A stretch of 34,888 nucleotides of DNA, from contig AUXH01000146.1 in the NCBI GenBank assembly GCA_000482145.1, positions 1 through 34,888 of the forward strand, given 5' to 3'. The position numbers were made by a program, and so were the translations under genes. The notes under the pieces are model-generated. The model was not told where the DNA came from. It ran no database searches and saw nothing but the letters and a program-made list of their open reading frames with translations. This document shows, in pieces, positions 6,240 to 27,181 of this stretch; the first letter of the stretch is position 1, and each line of letters begins with the position of its first letter. This stretch comes from Strigomonas culicis (taxonomy: Eukaryota > Euglenozoa > Kinetoplastea > Trypanosomatida > Trypanosomatidae).

Positions 6240-8558
6240 TCATGAAAAGCGAAACTCAAACAGCCGCTCCTCGTTGCGTTGGATAAAACCTCGCTGGATG
6301 AGCAGCTCCAAACTCCGCTTCACCATTTTCTCCGAAACGGGCGCGCGCTCCACGTTATGCGGCATGCTGTTGAGATGGTTGGTGATGGCCGCCACCGTCT
6401 GCGCCCCATCACGCTTGAGGAGCTGCATGGTCCCGGCCTCGAGCGCGATGCGGCTCATCCGCACCGTCTCGACGGCGGGCATACTAGGGGCCTCCTGCTC
6501 CCCCAAAGCGCGTGGGATAGTCTGGGGAACCAGATGCAGCGTCGCGGCCGTAGGGTTGAAGCCAAGGTGACGCTCCAACACCGACCGCCGCTGCGGCGGC
6601 CACGGCTGACACAACAGAACGCCGGAGGTGACGAGGGGAGCGAGGATCACCCTGCACTCCACCGGGGTGATCTGGATCTCCTCGCACAGCGTCATGAAGG
6701 GCCACGGTGTCGGGCGGTTAAAGCACTGCAGCAACACCAACTGCGGCAGACTCACCTCCAGGTCCACGTGCGGTTGGCCGCACCCTTCTGCAAGCCGCAG
6801 GCGCACGACGCCGAAGGAGTACCACCGCGAAAACTCCACAATTTGCCCTTTGTTGGCTTCCTGACACACTTCCCTCGCCTCTGCAATCGCAGCGTCCAGC
6901 GCGGGCGGCAGTACAACCTGGGCGCAGCTGTCCGTCAGCGGCCACGCACTCTTGGACAGAACGGCCGACCGCTTTGTGGGGCTGCTGATGTAGATAGCCT
7001 GAGAGGACGCGCTCTGGATCATGGCGCGACTGCGGAATAGTGTCGGGCTCAGATGGATGACACCGAGCAGGTCCAACGTGCGCCTCTCCAGATCTTCGTT
7101 GTAGCAACCGTGCAACAGCCGGCGCGCGAGGTGAGCGCGGTGGGCACCCAGGAAAGCCTCCCGCGCGGATGGATCCACCTCCGGTAGGAAAGAGTACAAG
7201 TGGACGGCTTCTTCCACGGCACTCTTGACCGTCTCATTCACGTCCGCCGCGTGGGACATGGTGTGCGAGAGGCGGTCCGCGATGTGCATGGCGAGGATGC
7301 AGTAGTTGACCGAGGAGGCAGTGCCGTCGACAAAGCCCCACCGCAGTCCCGTCTCGATGGCCTTCTCAACCCCGACGCTGCTCTCCCGGCTGACGGGGGC
7401 GGCCACTTTCAGGCTCTGAAACGTGTGATGAAAGAGTTGGATAATGTCAATGTACATGCCCTCCGTATTGGGCGCGCGACGCACTACATTCTGCAGGGAC
7501 TGGGCGAAGAAGGTGCGGAAGGCGGTCTCGAGGAGAGCGCGGCCCTGATGGCTCATCAGTAGGAGCTCGTAGACGCATTTGACACGCGGGTCGCTCGCAG
7601 CCTCGCTGCACCGCTGCATCCAACTCGCAGAGTCCACCGCTTGGAAGAAGTCGATGTTCTTGTCGACAATCTCTCTGATGAGCCACGCTTTGGCCACATC
7701 GTTCGATACCAGATACTTCTCGGATCGCTCCAGCTCCTTTTGAATATCGCTGAGGCACACTTCCGCGTAGGTTGTGATGTCTTGCCGGCGAAGTGCCTTG
7801 GTTCGCTCACTAAAGTACGTACACATGTTCTTCACGTAGTCTGCCTCGATCACACTTGAGTAAATGCCAGAAGGCAGCATCGCCAATTCGTCCTTCAGCT
7901 CGACAGCCAACTCGACCTCCGTCTCAGAGTTGGTCTCTCGGCCGGTCGTAACCAGCTTGTGAAACTCACTGCGCAAAGCATCCAATAGCGCCGGCGAGCA
8001 CACTTCCTCCATCCACAATCGCAGAGCCAAATCCTCTGTGAGCTCGAAGGGAAACTCCTCCAGCCCGATGACGGACCAGGTGGAGGCCATACAGGAAAAG
8101 ACCGTCTTGAGATGCATAATGGACACAAGGTACGAGCGCCAGAGGCGAATATAGGTCCGGATGATGTGCAGCTCTGACGACTGTGATCGTCCCAGCTCAG
8201 CCGCAAACTTGGTATAGACATGGTCACGCAGATGGCTTTGCAGCAATGCACTGAGGGCCCAGTTCACAACGTGAATCTGAGAAGCCTCTTTGGAGTAGCT
8301 ATCAAAGCTGGGTGATATGGGCAAGCCGTTGCAAGGGTGGGATACCAAGTGGTACGCAAGAACATGCGCATCTAAAGTGGTTTGTGCTATTCCTTTAAGT
8401 GTGAGTGGCTGATCTTTGCAGTCCCTTAATGCTTCATCCCAGTTGAGTATTGTTATACACTTTTCCTTCAATGGATTCCACAAATCGTAAAACATAAAGG
8501 GTTTTGATACCGACTGCGACAACAGCATGGCAAGTGGGCCAGACTCCCTATCAGTCAT
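6240..8558 (-). CDS. Cullin family protein (GC-richer copy)
   Basis: A 772-residue scaffold of a cullin-RING ubiquitin ligase. The N-terminal half is all-helical with cullin-repeat-like segments (for example IIRTYIRLWRSYLVSIMHL near 130). The C-terminal winged-helix neddylation domain is clear: ALEAGTMQLLKRDGAQ, with Lys715 at the NEDD8-acceptor position, then VKRSLELLIQRGFIQRNEE near the end (canonical form: IKK.IE.LI.R.Y..R). The central cullin-homology region is diverged but the length is normal for the family. ATG at 8558, TGA stop at 6240. The 5' leader just before the ATG is a (CAA)n-type repeat on the mRNA strand. It is tandem with, and strongly diverged from, the AT-rich cullin upstream. 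It cannot be assigned to CUL1, CUL3 or CUL4 by eye. Confidence 0.9.
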   Translation of the reverse strand: MTDRESGPLAMLLSQSVSKPFMFYDLWNPLKEKCITILNWDEALRDCKDQPLTLKGIAQTTLDAHVLAYHLVSHPCNGLPISPSFDSYSKEASQIHVVNWALSALLQSHLRDHVYTKFAAELGRSQSSELHIIRTYIRLWRSYLVSIMHLKTVFSCMASTWSVIGLEEFPFELTEDLALRLWMEEVCSPALLDALRSEFHKLVTTGRETNSETEVELAVELKDELAMLPSGIYSSVIEADYVKNMCTYFSERTKALRRQDITTYAEVCLSDIQKELERSEKYLVSNDVAKAWLIREIVDKNIDFFQAVDSASWMQRCSEAASDPRVKCVYELLLMSHQGRALLETAFRTFFAQSLQNVVRRAPNTEGMYIDIIQLFHHTFQSLKVAAPVSRESSVGVEKAIETGLRWGFVDGTASSVNYCILAMHIADRLSHTMSHAADVNETVKSAVEEAVHLYSFLPEVDPSAREAFLGAHRAHLARRLLHGCYNEDLERRTLDLLGVIHLSPTLFRSRAMIQSASSQAIYISSPTKRSAVLSKSAWPLTDSCAQVVLPPALDAAIAEAREVCQEANKGQIVEFSRWYSFGVVRLRLAEGCGQPHVDLEVSLPQLVLLQCFNRPTPWPFMTLCEEIQITPVECRVILAPLVTSGVLLCQPWPPQRRSVLERHLGFNPTAATLHLVPQTIPRALGEQEAPSMPAVETVRMSRIALEAGTMQLLKRDGAQTVAAITNHLNSMPHNVERAPVSEKMVKRSLELLIQRGFIQRNEERLFEFRFS

Positions 8559-9134: not shown

Positions 9135-11498
9135 CTAATATGACATGGCAAAAGTACCGTCTGCAGTGCCACGAATAATGTAACCTCTTTGGATTAAACG
9201 CTCAATACTCTTTTTAATCTGCTTTACATTAAATTCGTATGACTCAAGTGCTTTTTGAACAGCATTTTGAATGTCACTGAGAGAAGCCTCTTGTACGCTC
9301 TTCAAGAATTTTACAATGATTGCTTCCAGCGCAAAAGTGTGCAGATTCTCTGCGCGTGCAGGATTATTAGTGGTGGTGGAAGGGAACTGAGCTTTTGTTG
9401 TGTTGTTTGTTACTCCTGGTTTAAGCACTAACAAATCACCATCAAATGAGCACTCTCCTAACGAGCATTCGGTGCCGTTCAATTTCAATATATTTGTAGA
9501 AAAGAATGGCGCTAAAAATCCCTTACTGATGGCCGGTTGGATATCTGCCTCCTCTGACAGTTTGGTCAAGGTGCACTTCTTCTGTTTGTTGAACACAAAC
9601 GCAAGTCGTGCTTGGCCGAAATAAACGTGGATCTTTGTGTTGCGACCACTAGGATTCTTATAATTCAATATAAAACTTGAATACTGTGGCAAGAAAGATA
9701 TTTTCCTTGAGGCCATTTGATTGCTGTACGCTTTCTGGTAAGAGCTTAAAACATGTTTAATCTTGCTGTAAATTACATCTCTGGCTGAAGGAAGTTCAGC
9801 TAGACGGGACGCGCTTAAATCCCAAGACGACGAGAGAACAAATCCATCCACTGGTACTGACGGCAGTGTGGATCCAAAGTAACGGTTGAACGTGGAGCTC
9901 TCTTTCAGATCTTTGAACATTTTATTACATGAAAAGGCAAAATCAAAATTAACTCCCTTTGCAAACAAATCAGATAGCATTCGTTCCTCTCTCTGCAAAA
10001 AATCGTCGATTCCTTTTTTTTGCACAATATGCATATTTCGGAAAAGACGTTGCTGAAGCAGTGCCTTGTAGCATTTGTGGAACTGCTCCTTGTCTGTGCT
10101 CTTTTTGTAGACATCTGCGACCCAATTCCCGTCTGCAATGTTGCGTGATTCTTCCATTTCTTTTGACGCAAATATGGCCAACAAATGTGCTTCATTTGTT
10201 TTAGTGTAGTACATGCAGTGAGAAGGTAGTCTCTGAAGTGCGAGATGTATGCCATCTGGTATAGCCTCCAGCAAGCGGCATTGTGCACCGAATATTTTTA
10301 TTATTTTCTGATTAAATGTACTAAACACTTTACTCAGCTCTTCGTAAATAATATTGTTTTTCTCCACATCTTCATGCATGGTGTTTTTTGAGAGGCGGCT
10401 CGTTATTGCCTCAAAGGCCGTAGTTAATACTAAATCGCCAACAACCCTTTCAAGCCAGCTTGGTTTAGTCCCACTTCCCAGTAGTATATACAACTTATTC
10501 AAGCACTTTACGTGAACTGGATTCCCAGTTACAGCCTCCCGGAGCCACTCTTGTGAAGACACTACAAGGAAATCGGCCTCTGTGCCAATAAGAATGTTGA
10601 AAACTTCATTTCTCACACGGGCATAAGAACTTTTACTTAAAAAGAATCGGACACGCTTCTCCTCTTTTTTGAATTCAGTCACACAAAATTCAATGTATTT
10701 TTCTGCCCCTATCTTCTTGTAAATTTCCTTTTGATTATGGTAGTAAGCAGAAAGAGAGTTGACGTAAGGCTCTTCCATAATAGCGAGGTATTGCGTTTGA
10801 CGAGAACCGTTGAGCATGCTCAAGTTCAAAGAAAGTCGCTTAATGTCCTCCATTGCAGAAATGCTGACAATTGTACCACCACGCACAGCGGTAACGATGC
10901 CATCTACTTTCTCTCGGAGAATCTTCTCTAAACTGGAGTCTACAATAATTTCCGTCCACAGTTGTAAAGCCAGTAATTCTGTCGGATGAACGATGTGTTC
11001 GGCAGGTAACCCTCGCTGCTGCCACACCCACTGTGAATATGTGAAGCCAGTTTTGATAAGATTAACAGATGTGCTAAATTGTTCGTATGTGTCTAAATAT
11101 CTTCCAATAATATCTGGCTCCTGTATATATTTCTTTCGGATATGCAACTGTTTCTTTAATATGTCCTTCAGCAAGTAAAAGACAGCAAGAACCTGAGTGC
11201 TTTCTGGCTTGTCTCCCGTAATCTGCCGTGGCGCAGTCCCTCTTACCAAGGTTGGTGGATCCGCGCATTTATACGCCGTTAACCGGTAAACAAGCGTATG
11301 GATGATGCATAAATTACGATTTATTTCGTTGTACACGTTTGTTAAATCTCCCTGGTGCGGTTCATTAAAAAAGGAGAAAATCTCCTCGCAGGCATTATCT
11401 ACTGCACTCCATAATGATGGAAAACTGTAAAAATAATTCTCCTCTATTGGCATATGAAATGCAAGCGCCGTTACTCCATTGGCGGTTACAGTCGGCAT
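9135..11498 (-). CDS. Divergent cullin family protein (AT-rich copy)
   Basis: A 787-residue cullin, the first gene of the left file. The chosen start is the ATG at 11498 (MPTVTANGVTALAFHMPIEE); sequence further upstream in frame is TA-repeat translation and non-genic. The C-terminal neddylation domain is well kept: LEAIIVKFLKSVQEAS with Lys733 at the acceptor site, then VKQIKKSIERLIQRGYIIRG. The rest is helical and poorly conserved by eye, with segments such as ALQLWTEIIVDSSLEKILRE that parallel DLALRLWMEEVCSPALLDAL in the neighbouring cullin, which supports relatedness. Base composition is markedly AT-rich (22 of 60 bases G+C in 9961-10020) compared with its partner. Presumably a scaffold for a RING ubiquitin ligase. 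Stop is TAG. Confidence 0.88.
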   Translation of the reverse strand: MPTVTANGVTALAFHMPIEENYFYSFPSLWSAVDNACEEIFSFFNEPHQGDLTNVYNEINRNLCIIHTLVYRLTAYKCADPPTLVRGTAPRQITGDKPESTQVLAVFYLLKDILKKQLHIRKKYIQEPDIIGRYLDTYEQFSTSVNLIKTGFTYSQWVWQQRGLPAEHIVHPTELLALQLWTEIIVDSSLEKILREKVDGIVTAVRGGTIVSISAMEDIKRLSLNLSMLNGSRQTQYLAIMEEPYVNSLSAYYHNQKEIYKKIGAEKYIEFCVTEFKKEEKRVRFFLSKSSYARVRNEVFNILIGTEADFLVVSSQEWLREAVTGNPVHVKCLNKLYILLGSGTKPSWLERVVGDLVLTTAFEAITSRLSKNTMHEDVEKNNIIYEELSKVFSTFNQKIIKIFGAQCRLLEAIPDGIHLALQRLPSHCMYYTKTNEAHLLAIFASKEMEESRNIADGNWVADVYKKSTDKEQFHKCYKALLQQRLFRNMHIVQKKGIDDFLQREERMLSDLFAKGVNFDFAFSCNKMFKDLKESSTFNRYFGSTLPSVPVDGFVLSSSWDLSASRLAELPSARDVIYSKIKHVLSSYQKAYSNQMASRKISFLPQYSSFILNYKNPSGRNTKIHVYFGQARLAFVFNKQKKCTLTKLSEEADIQPAISKGFLAPFFSTNILKLNGTECSLGECSFDGDLLVLKPGVTNNTTKAQFPSTTTNNPARAENLHTFALEAIIVKFLKSVQEASLSDIQNAVQKALESYEFNVKQIKKSIERLIQRGYIIRGTADGTFAMSY

Positions 11499-11545
11499 GA
11501 TAATAAATATATATTTATATCTGTATGAAAAAAATGAAAAAAAAT

Positions 11546-11590
11546 TATATATATATATATATGAGTATGTGTGTGTAAATATATATATAT
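11546..11590. repeat. TA-dinucleotide tracts upstream of the AT-rich cullin
   Basis: Two TA/AT runs (11546-11562 and about 11579-11590) flank a short GT stretch, just upstream (on the minus strand) of the cullin start at 11498. They lie in its leader or promoter-proximal DNA. Confidence 0.85.
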
Positions 11591-12666
11591 GCTTTGATTG
11601 GCAGACAGGCGCCACTTATTCTTCAATGTTTATTATTTTTTTTTATTAGTAGTAGTAGTAGTATTTGGGGTACAAGTTCTAGTACTATTAGAAGAAGAAA
11701 TACTCGAAAGAAATAGTACTTTAAAAAAAATTGTGTATATTGAAGTGAATAACAACCGTTTTTGTGTATAACTTAATCTAAATATCTGCAGATGGAGAGA
11801 TAAATAACACTAACTCTTACACCTGATGTGTTAATCACTGTTGCACGAAGGGAAAAGGAAACGACCCAAATAACTAAAGCACAAATAAGAAAACTGAGAA
11901 TGAAACCTACACGAAAACTACTTAAAGATGCAATTAAAGATAAACAAAAAGCAAGAGGAAGGAAAAGTAACATATAATTCCAAAACAACAATAATAAAAA
12001 GCATAATCGTAGTGGTATCAATGAGTATAAAACAGAAAGAAAAAGATGAAAGAACAAATGATAATGGTGAATATGCAGTTTATATAGTAGTTGTTTAACT
12101 AATGTTCATAACTTTATTATCATATCCGGTTTTTAATCGACTCCTTTCGAAGTTTTATTACCGTTGTAATAACCGATACACTCTTATTACGGAGTCATTT
12201 GAAATGCATGAACAAAAAAAAAACAGGGAACACTCCATGTTTTTCCTTTCAATATATTTCTTGCATTTTTTTTTCTAATGAGCATCCTCTCTTCACTTAT
12301 TAGGTGCTTCCGTAATCTACAAAGAGCCCTTAAATACCCCATGTGAATTACATATCTGTGTTTCATGTTCCCCGTTAGAATTGTTGGAAACCACATGTTT
12401 TCTAACACCCGCCCATGATTACTGACAAAAAATCCGTAAAAACATCGGCGACAACCGCTCACACGCCCCACGCACTTTCTCCTCCCAGCCCTCGCCCCAA
12501 CACCAACGAGGAGCGGCCACCACCGCCACGGAGAAACGCGCGGGGGCAAAGAAATGCCCAAAACAGCCCAGAGCCCCGGGGCGGAAAGGAAGAACAGCGA
12601 CGCAACAACGCAACACCAACACAAAACGAAAAAGCGGCAACCCCTCGGCGAGGGGTGAGGCGAGCG

Positions 12667-23706: not shown

Positions 23707-24103
23707 AGAGCTGGTCTGCAGGTACCGGTGCACATCCGAGGTTAACTCTTCCGCCCCCCTTCCTTACCTTGTTTGCATCCATTTACCCTTTAATCATAAC
23801 CTTTTTTTTTAGTAATCTGACGTGTAATAACTGTTAATAACCATATGCATTTATCATCTTTTGTGTTAGCGCATCTTTTTCATTCTATTTACTTGTTTAA
23901 GGCGCACCGTTTTTACGTTGTGCTGGAGTTCGCTTCCTTGTTTAACTGCTCCTGAACCCCTCTTCTTCCGCTCTCTTTATGGCTACTGAGCCAGCTATCC
24001 TTCTTGTATCCAAAGAAGAGATGAAATAACGCTGCCAAAGAAGACAGACGGAATAAAACACATATACTCGTACACCTTTGACTCACATTTATAGTTTTGC
24101 TTC
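23707..24103. other. Spacer between RPC19 and the adenylation-ankyrin gene
   Basis: AT-rich spacer of about 400 bases with T runs (e.g. near 23803-23811) and a CT-rich stretch near 23955-23977. The splice acceptor of the next gene should lie here. I see no gene. Confidence 0.5.
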
Positions 24104-26926
24104 ATGAAGACTGCCGTGCTTGTCAGCGATGAGGCAGACACCTTCCTGCTGGCGGAGTCCATCGATGCCTCGTTGCGCACCCGCAGCGACGCGTGCCCGC
24201 TGTTTTCTCTTCTCTTCACGACAGCGGAGCGAGAGGCGCTGCACCCTGCGGCGCCCCCCGCCAATGACGCAGCGGCGCCGTTCAAGTACGTACTGCACAA
24301 GCGCGCCTGGTTCGCTCTCGCAGACACGATCAAGGGCATGCTCGCCGAGGCGGTGCCGCCCGGCGACGTCCTGTGCCACGTCGGTCTTCTCTGCGCGGAG
24401 ACGTTTTACGCCTGCGTGGTGGAGAGCGTCTGCTTCTACTTGGGCGCGCCCTTCTGCGTGTTCAACCCCGCGGACCCGGAGCGCCGCCGGGCCGAGCTGC
24501 TGGCGCGGCTGCGCCCCTGTCTGCTGCTGACGGACGAGGCGATCGAGGACATGGTGCGGCAGGTGCTGGCGGCACCGGTCGGCGGGGAGTGCCCCGCAGG
24601 AGCGCCCCTGCCACCGGCAGAGGGGACGCCGGCGGCCGTGCCGGACCGGGCGGTGGCTTACTACGTGCACACGTCGGGTTCGTCCGGGTTGCCCAAGTGT
24701 GTGGTGGTGTCGCGCGCGAACATGTACGCCTACGTGACCGGGTTTTGCCTGGCGGCGGAGGGCCTCGCGATCGGCGGCCCGGCCGCTGCGCCAGACCGTA
24801 TCCTGTGCGTCTCCACGCCCTTCTTCGACCCTTCCATTGGCGACACGGCGTCCACGCTGCTCTCGCCCGCCGCGTCTCTGCTGGCCGTCCCGCGCGCGAG
24901 CCTGCTGGCGGGCGAGGTGGGCGCGCTGCTCGCCGCGGCGCGGCCGACGCACGTCGTCACCACACCGGTCGTGTGGTCCGGCGTGCCGGTGCAGGCGCTC
25001 CCGCGCGGCGGCCCGCCACTGAAGGTGTTCATTGGCGGAGAGCGCATGTCGCAGGCGTTTGTCGACACGTGGTGTGGCGCGGTGGAGCTGCATAACGTGT
25101 ACGGGCTGACGGAGGCCACCGTGTACCAGAGCTGTGTCCGCATCCCCCCCGGCGGCCTCTGCGTCGCGGATCTGTCCTGCGGCGTGGGCACGGGGAGCTC
25201 CGCCCTCTACCTGGACCGCCGGCGGCTCTCCGCTGAGGAGGCGGCCTCCGTGGGGGAGATGGCGGGCGAGCTCGTGGTGCGCGGCCCGCAGGTGTGCGAC
25301 GGCTATCTCGGCGAGCCCCCGTCCGCGGCGTCCTCGCCGTTCGGCGTGTGCCACCGCACGGGCGAGCGGCTGCTGTACACGGGCGACCTCGCGGAGCCGT
25401 GTGGCGGGGCCGGCAGCGGCGGCGCGCCGCTGCGGCTGCGCGGCCGGCGGGACTGGCAGGTGAAGGTCAACGGCCAGCGGGTCGCGCTGGAGGAGGTGGA
25501 GGAGACGATGCGGCGCGTGCTGCAGACGTCCTTCGCCGCCTACTGCGCCTGCGTCCTCCCCCCCGCCGCGGGCGGCGACGCGGCGCGGCTGGGGGCCGTG
25601 GCGGTGCTGCCGCCCTGCGGCGGGGCGGACGCGGACCTGCCGCGGGCGGGCGGGGCCCTGCGGTGGGCCGTGCAGCAGCTGCTGCGCCTCTACCTGCCGC
25701 CCGGCACGACGCCCTCCGTGTGGTGCTTCCTGCCGTCGGCGGAGGCGCTGCCGCAGTCCGCGACGGGCAAGCTCGACCGCCGGCAGCTCTCCGAGCGCCT
25801 GGCGGCGCGGGCCGCTGCGGACGGCGGTGAGGCGGCCGCGGGCGCCGACGCCCCGGCGGAGGAGGCGGACGCGCTCTTCCGCCTGGTGCACGCGGTGTGG
25901 GCGCGCTACTTTGGCGTCGCCGTCAGCGCCGGGACGCACTTTGCGCAGGTGGGCGGGGACTCCCTCGGCGCGCTGCGTTTGACGCGGCTCGTGTTCCTGG
26001 CCCTCGGGGGCACCGATGCGGACATCGACGCCCACGGTGTCCTGCCGCCGCCCTTTCGCCCCCACGTGCTGCTCACCCACCCATGCCTCGGGGCCTACGT
26101 GGCGGCCCTGCGCGCGGCGCTGTGTGCGGGCGGCTGCGAGCGGTTCCGTCCCGCGGCGGAGGAGACGGCGGTGCCGCCGCCGGTCGTCGTGGCCGCGGAG
26201 GGCCCGGCGCACTTCCTGGACGTGGTGTCGTTGGGGTGCGTCGACCTCGTGGCGCGGCTGCTGGCGCACGGCCTGGCCGACGTGGACGGCGGCAACACGC
26301 GGCAGCACCGCTGCACCGCGCCGCTGCACGCGGCCGCGAACCTGCCGGCGGAGGCCGCCGCCGTCGCGATGCTGCGCCTGCTGCTCGCGCACGGCGCCAA
26401 GCCGACCTGCGTCAGCCGGGACGGCGTCGCCCCGCACCACCTCGCGGCGACGCACTCCGTCGGGCGGCTGCAGGCACTGCTGGAGGGCGGCGGTGGCGGC
26501 CGCGGCGCGCTGCAGTGCCGGGACAGCCGCCAGCAGTCCGTGCTGCACTTCGCGGCGCGGGCGGGCAGCGCCGCCGTGGTGCGGTACCTCCTCACCGCCC
26601 ACGCGGCCGACCTCGCCGTGCGCGACAAGTGGCAGCGCAGCCCCGCGCACTGGGCGCTGCTCAACGGCCACCGCGACACGCTGCGGGCCATGGCCGACCA
26701 CGTGACGGCGCAGCGTCAGCAAGCGGGCGCCGACGCGAAGGCCGCCAAGCTGGAGGGCGGCGCGGCACCGCGGCGCGGGCAGGGCACGTCGCGGTACACC
26801 CGCCTGGCGGGCCGCAAGACGCACCTCGCGTACGAGTCCCTGCCGGCGATGGCGGCGCGGGTGGCGCCCGGAGTGGAGGAGGTGCGGGAGTGGTGCGCCA
26901 TTCTGGCAGAGGTGGTGGAGCAGTGA
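24104..26926 (+). CDS. NRPS-like adenylation-carrier-ankyrin fusion protein
   Basis: A 940-residue fusion. The adenylation (AMP-binding) domain spans about 30-570: TSGSSGLPKCVVV (A3, about 191); FFDPSIGD (A4) with Asp242 where amino-acid-activating NRPS domains hold the alpha-amino group; NVYGLTEA (A5, 331-338); LLYTGDL (A7); RGRRDWQVKVNGQRVALEEV (A8, Asp450); and ATGKLDRRQL (A10) with Lys556, the AMP-forming lysine. A thiolation domain follows, with Ser620 in VGGDSLGAL as the phosphopantetheine site. About five ankyrin repeats (698-870) then replace any condensation, reductase or thioesterase domain. The enzyme should activate an amino or carboxylic acid with ATP and load it on its own carrier arm; the acceptor is unknown, and ankyrins may bind it. 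The domain order up to the carrier resembles AASDH/ACSF4. A3 has PKC where PKG is usual. Very GC-rich codons. ATG 24104, TGA stop. Confidence 0.9.
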   Translation: MKTAVLVSDEADTFLLAESIDASLRTRSDACPLFSLLFTTAEREALHPAAPPANDAAAPFKYVLHKRAWFALADTIKGMLAEAVPPGDVLCHVGLLCAETFYACVVESVCFYLGAPFCVFNPADPERRRAELLARLRPCLLLTDEAIEDMVRQVLAAPVGGECPAGAPLPPAEGTPAAVPDRAVAYYVHTSGSSGLPKCVVVSRANMYAYVTGFCLAAEGLAIGGPAAAPDRILCVSTPFFDPSIGDTASTLLSPAASLLAVPRASLLAGEVGALLAAARPTHVVTTPVVWSGVPVQALPRGGPPLKVFIGGERMSQAFVDTWCGAVELHNVYGLTEATVYQSCVRIPPGGLCVADLSCGVGTGSSALYLDRRRLSAEEAASVGEMAGELVVRGPQVCDGYLGEPPSAASSPFGVCHRTGERLLYTGDLAEPCGGAGSGGAPLRLRGRRDWQVKVNGQRVALEEVEETMRRVLQTSFAAYCACVLPPAAGGDAARLGAVAVLPPCGGADADLPRAGGALRWAVQQLLRLYLPPGTTPSVWCFLPSAEALPQSATGKLDRRQLSERLAARAAADGGEAAAGADAPAEEADALFRLVHAVWARYFGVAVSAGTHFAQVGGDSLGALRLTRLVFLALGGTDADIDAHGVLPPPFRPHVLLTHPCLGAYVAALRAALCAGGCERFRPAAEETAVPPPVVVAAEGPAHFLDVVSLGCVDLVARLLAHGLADVDGGNTRQHRCTAPLHAAANLPAEAAAVAMLRLLLAHGAKPTCVSRDGVAPHHLAATHSVGRLQALLEGGGGGRGALQCRDSRQQSVLHFAARAGSAAVVRYLLTAHAADLAVRDKWQRSPAHWALLNGHRDTLRAMADHVTAQRQQAGADAKAAKLEGGAAPRRGQGTSRYTRLAGRKTHLAYESLPAMAARVAPGVEEVREWCAILAEVVEQ

Positions 26927-27181
26927 TTGCCACGTCCGCGTGTGCGTGCGCTCTGTATACTTTAGTTGGCGGGACGTAAACTGCATCATAATCGTAACAA
27001 AAAAGCAAACAAACAAAGATTTGGTCGTCATATGGCTTTACGCGCTCGAGGTGTTCACTCTCTCTCTCTCACCTTTTCTGTGAAGACGGATGCAGACGGT
27101 GCACTACATTTTCTGTTCCCCTTCCTCCCCCTTTTCACTCTTTCCACGAGCAATTCAAACTTAGTCACACCCAGCGCGACC

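Follow-up and report, generated by a model that had tools for sequence, protein, structure and literature searches.

How might an enzyme apparently built to charge its own carrier domain with an amino acid pass that amino acid on, if it ends in ankyrin repeats and carries no visible offloading domain? The question is raised by a gene in a 34,888-nucleotide stretch of the trypanosomatid Strigomonas culicis (contig AUXH01000146.1, assembly GCA_000482145.1; hereafter the window), which encodes, from ATG to stop, a 940-amino-acid (aa) protein (P0001) composed of an adenylation domain, a carrier (thiolation) domain, an ankyrin domain and a C-terminal tail (A-T-ankyrin; Table 1). We think it rather probable that this protein is a single-module, nonribosomal peptide synthetase (NRPS)-like aminoacyl carrier of some trypanosomatids, which transfers the bound amino acid in trans to a partner docked on the ankyrins. 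The initial annotation had proposed this fusion, with a full set of adenylation motifs, an apparently intact phosphopantetheine serine (Ser620), an amino-acid-type adenylation domain and no visible offloading domain, and had suspected that homologues might already be annotated in other kinetoplastids; these points were borne out by the domain searches, alignment and motif scan described below, while the roles that it offered (modifier of a protein or small molecule, storage or sensing device) are conjectural.

In Pfam searches of the window protein, AMP-binding was matched at aa 83-402 (E 1.8e-26; 93.3 bits against a cut-off of 29.9) and Ank_2 at aa 788-866 (E 2.4e-12; 47.7 bits against a cut-off of 27.3), the latter placing it among ankyrin-repeat proteins, and the top NCBIfam model was TIGR01733 (amino acid adenylation). 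The adenylation core motifs, following what we take to be their usual names and list (A3-A8, A10), are complete: TSGSSGLPK (A3), FFDPSIGD (A4), NVYGLTEATVY (A5), GELVVRGPQVCDGY (A6), LYTGD (A7), GRRDWQVKVNGQRVALEEVE (A8) and LPQSATGK (A10), as suits the amino-acid-type adenylation domain of a single-module (A-T-X) protein. By aligning the 14 members of the family described below with 22 NRPS-type proteins, we found that TGD is kept throughout the family, together with Asp242 and Lys556, which we take to be the equivalents of GrsA Asp235 (the binder of the alpha-amino group in NRPS adenylation domains) and GrsA Lys517 (the catalytic A10 lysine). The specificity code, which the initial annotation had asked for, could be extracted from the same alignment: the ten pocket columns, positioned by GrsA landmarks as we understand them, read DPGVFGVVYK in the window protein and DPG[VI]FG[VIL][VI]YK across all 14 members. 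The 22 non-family rows served as a control: Asp fills the first pocket column in 19 of them and Lys the last in 21; six of these pockets resemble known Ser, Thr, Asn/Asp or Leu codes (e.g. DVWHISLIDK, DFWSLGMVHK, DLTKVGHVGK), and the others could not be placed. The window pocket agrees with one known isoleucine code at six of ten letters, which is not taken as an assignment. Asp242 argues for an alpha-amino acid as the putative substrate.

The octapeptide GGDSLGAL, which holds Ser620, is identical in all 14 members, and PP-binding was matched in 11 and Ank_2 in all of 13 family members (Pfam, E<=0.1). By superposing the structure model (the second one made; the first had a pLDDT, or predicted local distance difference test score, of 65.9), we found that residues 11-668 fit EntF and residues 3-676 fit LgrA, covering the adenylation and carrier domains jointly. 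The C-terminal part is ankyrin and all-helical in the model.

Past the carrier, where the initial annotation had singled out aa 698-940 as the place in which a reductase or thioesterase domain might still be recognized, Pfam gives ankyrin families only and NCBIfam a single family, an ankyrin protein (best 25 of 36 families); no condensation (PF00668), reductase or thioesterase domain was found by Pfam in the window protein as a whole. The thioesterase motif GxSxG and the reductase motif [TS]GxxGxxG, as we take them to be, are absent past the carrier in 12 of the 14 members, the exceptions (GGSDG in P0010 and two glycine-rich runs in P0011) lying in glycine-rich linkers or an insertion, and HHxxxDG is absent in all 14. 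A cryptic offloading domain past the carrier is rejected on the results of Pfam, NCBIfam and the motif scan together.

Designed ankyrins are freely varied at repeat positions 3, 5, 13 and 14. In the last repeat of this family these positions (W843, R845, L853 and N854) are invariant in all 14 members, and position 2 is the same in 13 of the 14; the preceding repeat has invariant positions 3 and 13 and keeps position 5 in 13 members. Invariant loop residues where ankyrins usually vary suggest that the last repeats present a conserved surface to a partner. Mean pairwise identity among 13 members is 51% for the N-terminus, 59% for the adenylation domain, 68% for the carrier, 66% for the ankyrin domain, 65% for the tail and 19-30% for the linkers. 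The tail (aa 893-940) has no Pfam match and no SOCS box was shown there by Pfam at E<=0.1; its core reads KKTYLAYET in most members and KRTHLAYET in P0086, being kept even at 25% identity. A Padloc match, PDC-M72A, is confined to ankyrin residues 704-857.

Table 1 Coordinates of the A-T-ankyrin gene and its parts in the window.
Feature	Residues	Positions	Strand	Basis
Whole gene, adenylation-carrier-ankyrin protein (P0001)	1-940	24104..26926	+	Open reading frame, Pfam, homologues
Adenylation domain	12-570	24137..25813	+	Pfam, NCBIfam, alignment, structure superposition
Asp242 codon	242	24827..24829	+	Invariant 14/14; aligned with NRPS rows
Lys556 codon	556	25769..25771	+	Invariant 14/14
Carrier (thiolation, peptidyl-carrier-protein-like) domain	589-673	25868..26122	+	Pfam, alignment, model, superposition
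Ser620 codon, in GGDSLGAL; expected 4'-phosphopantetheine site	620	25961..25963	+	Invariant 14/14; attachment inferred
Ankyrin domain, ~5 repeats by model helix pattern	699-866	26198..26701	+	Pfam, model
C-terminal tail, conserved, partly helical, without family match	893-940	26780..26923	+	Alignment, Pfam, model

The homologue search returned 84 proteins at E<=1e-3, of which 12 have both AMP-binding and ankyrin (E 5.8e-184 to 4.0e-164, 37-43% identity, 90-99% query coverage) and the remaining 72 are NRPS or adenylation-domain proteins at E 8.5e-31 or weaker. A profile search (best 120 of 357 matches) added a divergent extra member, P0086 (1719 aa, E 1.4e-126, 25% identity). Since these searches scored only 7,984 and 7,986 candidates, respectively, distant members can be missed. 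The twelve full-length homologues exclude a chance origin of the reading frame; their annotations give a domain name or 'hypothetical protein', and they include Leishmania donovani, L. enriettii, L. braziliensis, L. tarentolae, L. martiniquensis, Porcisia hertigi, Leptomonas pyrrhocoris and Novymonas. Among the matches listed, no homologue came from Trypanosoma, Phytomonas or Bodo, though the CEP76 of each (the product of a gene near ours in the window) is present in the same database, and none came from Angomonas, an absence that says little because CEP76 of that genus is represented by a fragment.

In a maximum-likelihood tree of 54 adenylation domains, the 14 members form one clade (100/100) with P0086 outermost; the twelve full-length homologues group together (100/99) to the exclusion of the window protein. 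A 100/100 branch separates the family, together with the NRPSs, from five other AMP-binding proteins encoded in the window's genome, which are presumably acyl-CoA synthetases. Relations to particular NRPSs are not settled by the tree, and long branches meet at this separating join (a program warning). The phylogeny suggested by the initial annotation is answered in part: the family groups with NRPS adenylation domains and apart from the five proteins, in a tree that leaves out AASDH, Ebony and Lys2. An algal adenylation-domain protein (P0077) stood beside the family in a quick tree and not in two later ones; it is a long branch, and no kinship is read from it. When contigs were scanned for an A-T-ankyrin relative in bacteria or archaea, the 56 pattern matches included no relative, which is weak evidence resting on two short peptide patterns.

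The nearest comparisons are unstudied orthologues, namely P0002 ('AMP-binding enzyme family protein', L. donovani), ABB37_01584 (Leptomonas pyrrhocoris), JKF63_03629 (Porcisia hertigi) and LSCM1_03235 (Leishmania martiniquensis). They share domain order, full length, catalytic residues, pocket and tail with the window protein, and three of the four are known to sit four locus tags from CEP76; they differ in being 37-43% identical to the window protein, which branches outside the twelve. The bacterial LgrA initiation module and EntF resemble it in their adenylation-carrier sequence and predicted fold but, judging by entry titles and general background, have formylation, condensation or thioesterase domains of their own, and the window protein has no condensation domain of the canonical NRPS kind. 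Lys2 (alpha-aminoadipate reductase) presumably shares the A-T start, whereas its C-terminal reductase family was not found in the window protein by Pfam; a Lys2-type enzyme was rejected, as TIGR03443 scored 27.3 bits on P0002 against a cut-off of 1030.1 and was not among the best 25 of 36 families for the window protein. AASDH/ACSF4-U26 (the beta-alanine-activating enzyme), as we understand it, likewise has A-T followed by a repeat-type domain, but ends in a beta-propeller of the PQQ (pyrroloquinoline quinone) type, which the window protein lacks, having ankyrins instead, a comparison of domain order. In passages of PMC10531068, AASDH/ACSF4-U26 and Ebony are single-module NRPS-like proteins of animals, the former without a regular condensation domain and possibly a protein modifier. 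Ebony, which conjugates beta-alanine to biogenic amines in insects, is thus single-module like the present protein, but according to a reference title in the same source it has an atypical condensation domain where ankyrins stand here; judged by its own ankyrin matches and model, the window protein has no C-terminal condensation-like domain. We found no description of an A-T-ankyrin protein in the literature searched, which lay largely outside subscription journals, and the available parts of PMC13384848, PMC10531068, PMC5006380 and PMC4890743 do not describe this protein. We regard the trypanosomatid A-T-ankyrin protein as a new variant of the A-T-X kind represented by AASDH and Ebony.

From the intact motifs and the adenylation-carrier fold, a sequence of steps can be proposed. 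A phosphopantetheinyl transferase would arm Ser620, the adenylation domain would use ATP to turn an alpha-amino acid, which the pocket hints may be hydrophobic, into an aminoacyl-adenylate, and the aminoacyl group would then pass to the carrier thiol. Because no offloading domain was found, and because loop residues are invariant at usually variable ankyrin positions, we suppose that the ankyrin domain and tail dock a fixed partner, which could be the acceptor itself or an enzyme that would deliver the aminoacyl group in trans. A bolder proposal, which we rate as less likely than not, is a dedicated, tRNA-independent trypanosomatid system in which a self-charging carrier has no offloading domain of its own and, through an ankyrin dock with a fixed partner surface, aminoacylates a single specific target, either a protein or a small molecule.

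Several observations weigh against the proposal of an aminoacyl carrier acting in trans. TIGR01733 scored 162.4 bits, far under its cut-off of 317.4, and PP-binding (aa 594-628) scored 17.4 bits, under 20.8; the carrier call is upheld despite the latter because GGDSLGAL is universal in the family, PP-binding is matched in most members and the model superposes on EntF and LgrA, although only 5 of 50 superposition rows reach the carrier, two of them with a root-mean-square deviation above 17. One residue of A3 is altered in each of P0004 (L. enriettii, TSGSTGDPR) and P0005 (L. braziliensis, TSGSTRDPK), and A6 and A8 are altered in P0012 (L. martiniquensis), so that some species may have weakened adenylating activity or none. 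Of about five repeats, two entered the count of ankyrin loop conservation, and the fourth is variable at positions 2 and 14. No phosphopantetheinyl transferase was found in the genome at E<=1e-3; the one candidate (C14; 20.5-22.3 bits, under a cut-off of 25) was not confirmed by PDB and NCBIfam searches. This candidate Sfp-type transferase is a 356-aa frame (L012:889-1956) holding VGVDL and FSLKESVLK, which fit Sfp-type motifs.

The protein could instead serve as loading module in a small-molecule pathway split over several proteins, in which free-standing reductase, condensing or oxidizing enzymes meet the charged carrier, the ankyrins dock them and the product is a free metabolite (an amino aldehyde, amide or dipeptide). 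Bacterial stand-alone A and A-T proteins serve partners in trans, and the genome has three NAD_binding_4 matches; a condensation domain and a PF00975 thioesterase were, however, not found in the genome (an assembly of 670 contigs that may be incomplete), and the 12 Pfam-matched neighbouring frames (of 14 examined) include no apparent biosynthetic partner, yet trypanosomatid gene order rarely reflects pathways. We consider this pathway unlikely. It is improbable that the protein is an amino-acid sensor or store, in which charging would alter the ankyrin surface and signal amino-acid status without a chemical product: the conserved ankyrin loops and the restriction of offloading motifs to glycine-rich stretches across the 14 members would suit it, but a thioester-bound store would be costly, we know of no precedent, and no regulatory domain was seen by Pfam. 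An acyl-carrier ligase whose carboxylic acid substrate is no alpha-amino acid would suit the fatty-acyl-CoA ligase models that also match, at up to 61.7 bits (best 25 of 36 NCBIfam families); both TIGR01733 and DltA, which acts on the amino acid D-alanine, outscore these models, and the invariance of Asp242 and the separation from the five other AMP-binding proteins of the genome make such a ligase very improbable. That the protein is a scaffold losing enzyme activity, with the ankyrin block and tail carrying the function, is likewise very improbable, for although core motifs are altered in P0004, P0005 and P0012 and the adenylation domain is less conserved than the ankyrin domain (59% versus 66%), Asp242, Lys556, TGD and GGDSLGAL are kept in 14 of 14 members and the pocket changes only among Val, Ile and Leu, even in P0086.

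The locus bears on the history of the gene. CEP76, a DEAD helicase, Sua5 and an Rpb3/Rpb11-type polymerase subunit precede it in the window, and CEP76 and this gene lie four locus tags apart in L. martiniquensis, Porcisia and Leptomonas pyrrhocoris as well, a shared spacing which suggests that the gene is old at this locus and was vertically inherited. Amastin and the CEP76 matches identify the source as a trypanosomatid, and a CEP76 tree (31 rows chosen from the best 120 of 193 matches) groups the window with Angomonas deanei (100/99; represented by a 444-aa fragment) and away from Leishmaniinae and Phytomonas. The other Pfam-matched neighbours are DPCD, GRIM-19, D123, GDPD, two cullins, a MutY-like protein and amastin. 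The cullin genes are adjacent on the - strand (6240-8558 and 9135-11615), the first with a neddylation domain at 20.6 bits, under the Pfam cut-off of 36.9. G+C per kilobase ranges from 0.344 to 0.767 across the window (1-34888), whose most G+C-rich stretch is the A-T-ankyrin gene; A+T predominates in the second cullin gene (9-11.6 kb). An antisense frame (24089-27031, - strand, 980 aa) spans the whole gene without a Pfam match at E<=0.01 and is probably a by-product of local G+C near 0.76.

The gene is single-copy, the only other match in the genome being a weak ankyrin one (C122, E 1.5e-4). PP-binding gave one genome match, a 150-aa protein (C23) resembling acyl carrier proteins; since this search overlooked the carrier of the window protein itself, it may have overlooked further divergent ones. 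Six AMP-binding genes lie on one strand of contig C182 (15078-30092, - strand; 14 of 21 candidates scored).

To our knowledge, it is an open puzzle to what AASDH and other eukaryotic A-T proteins pass their amino acid. The A-T-ankyrin gene is carried by Leishmania and was not seen in Trypanosoma among the matches listed, and its family represents another A-T design, in genetically tractable organisms, whose ankyrin dock could be used as bait for the acceptor.
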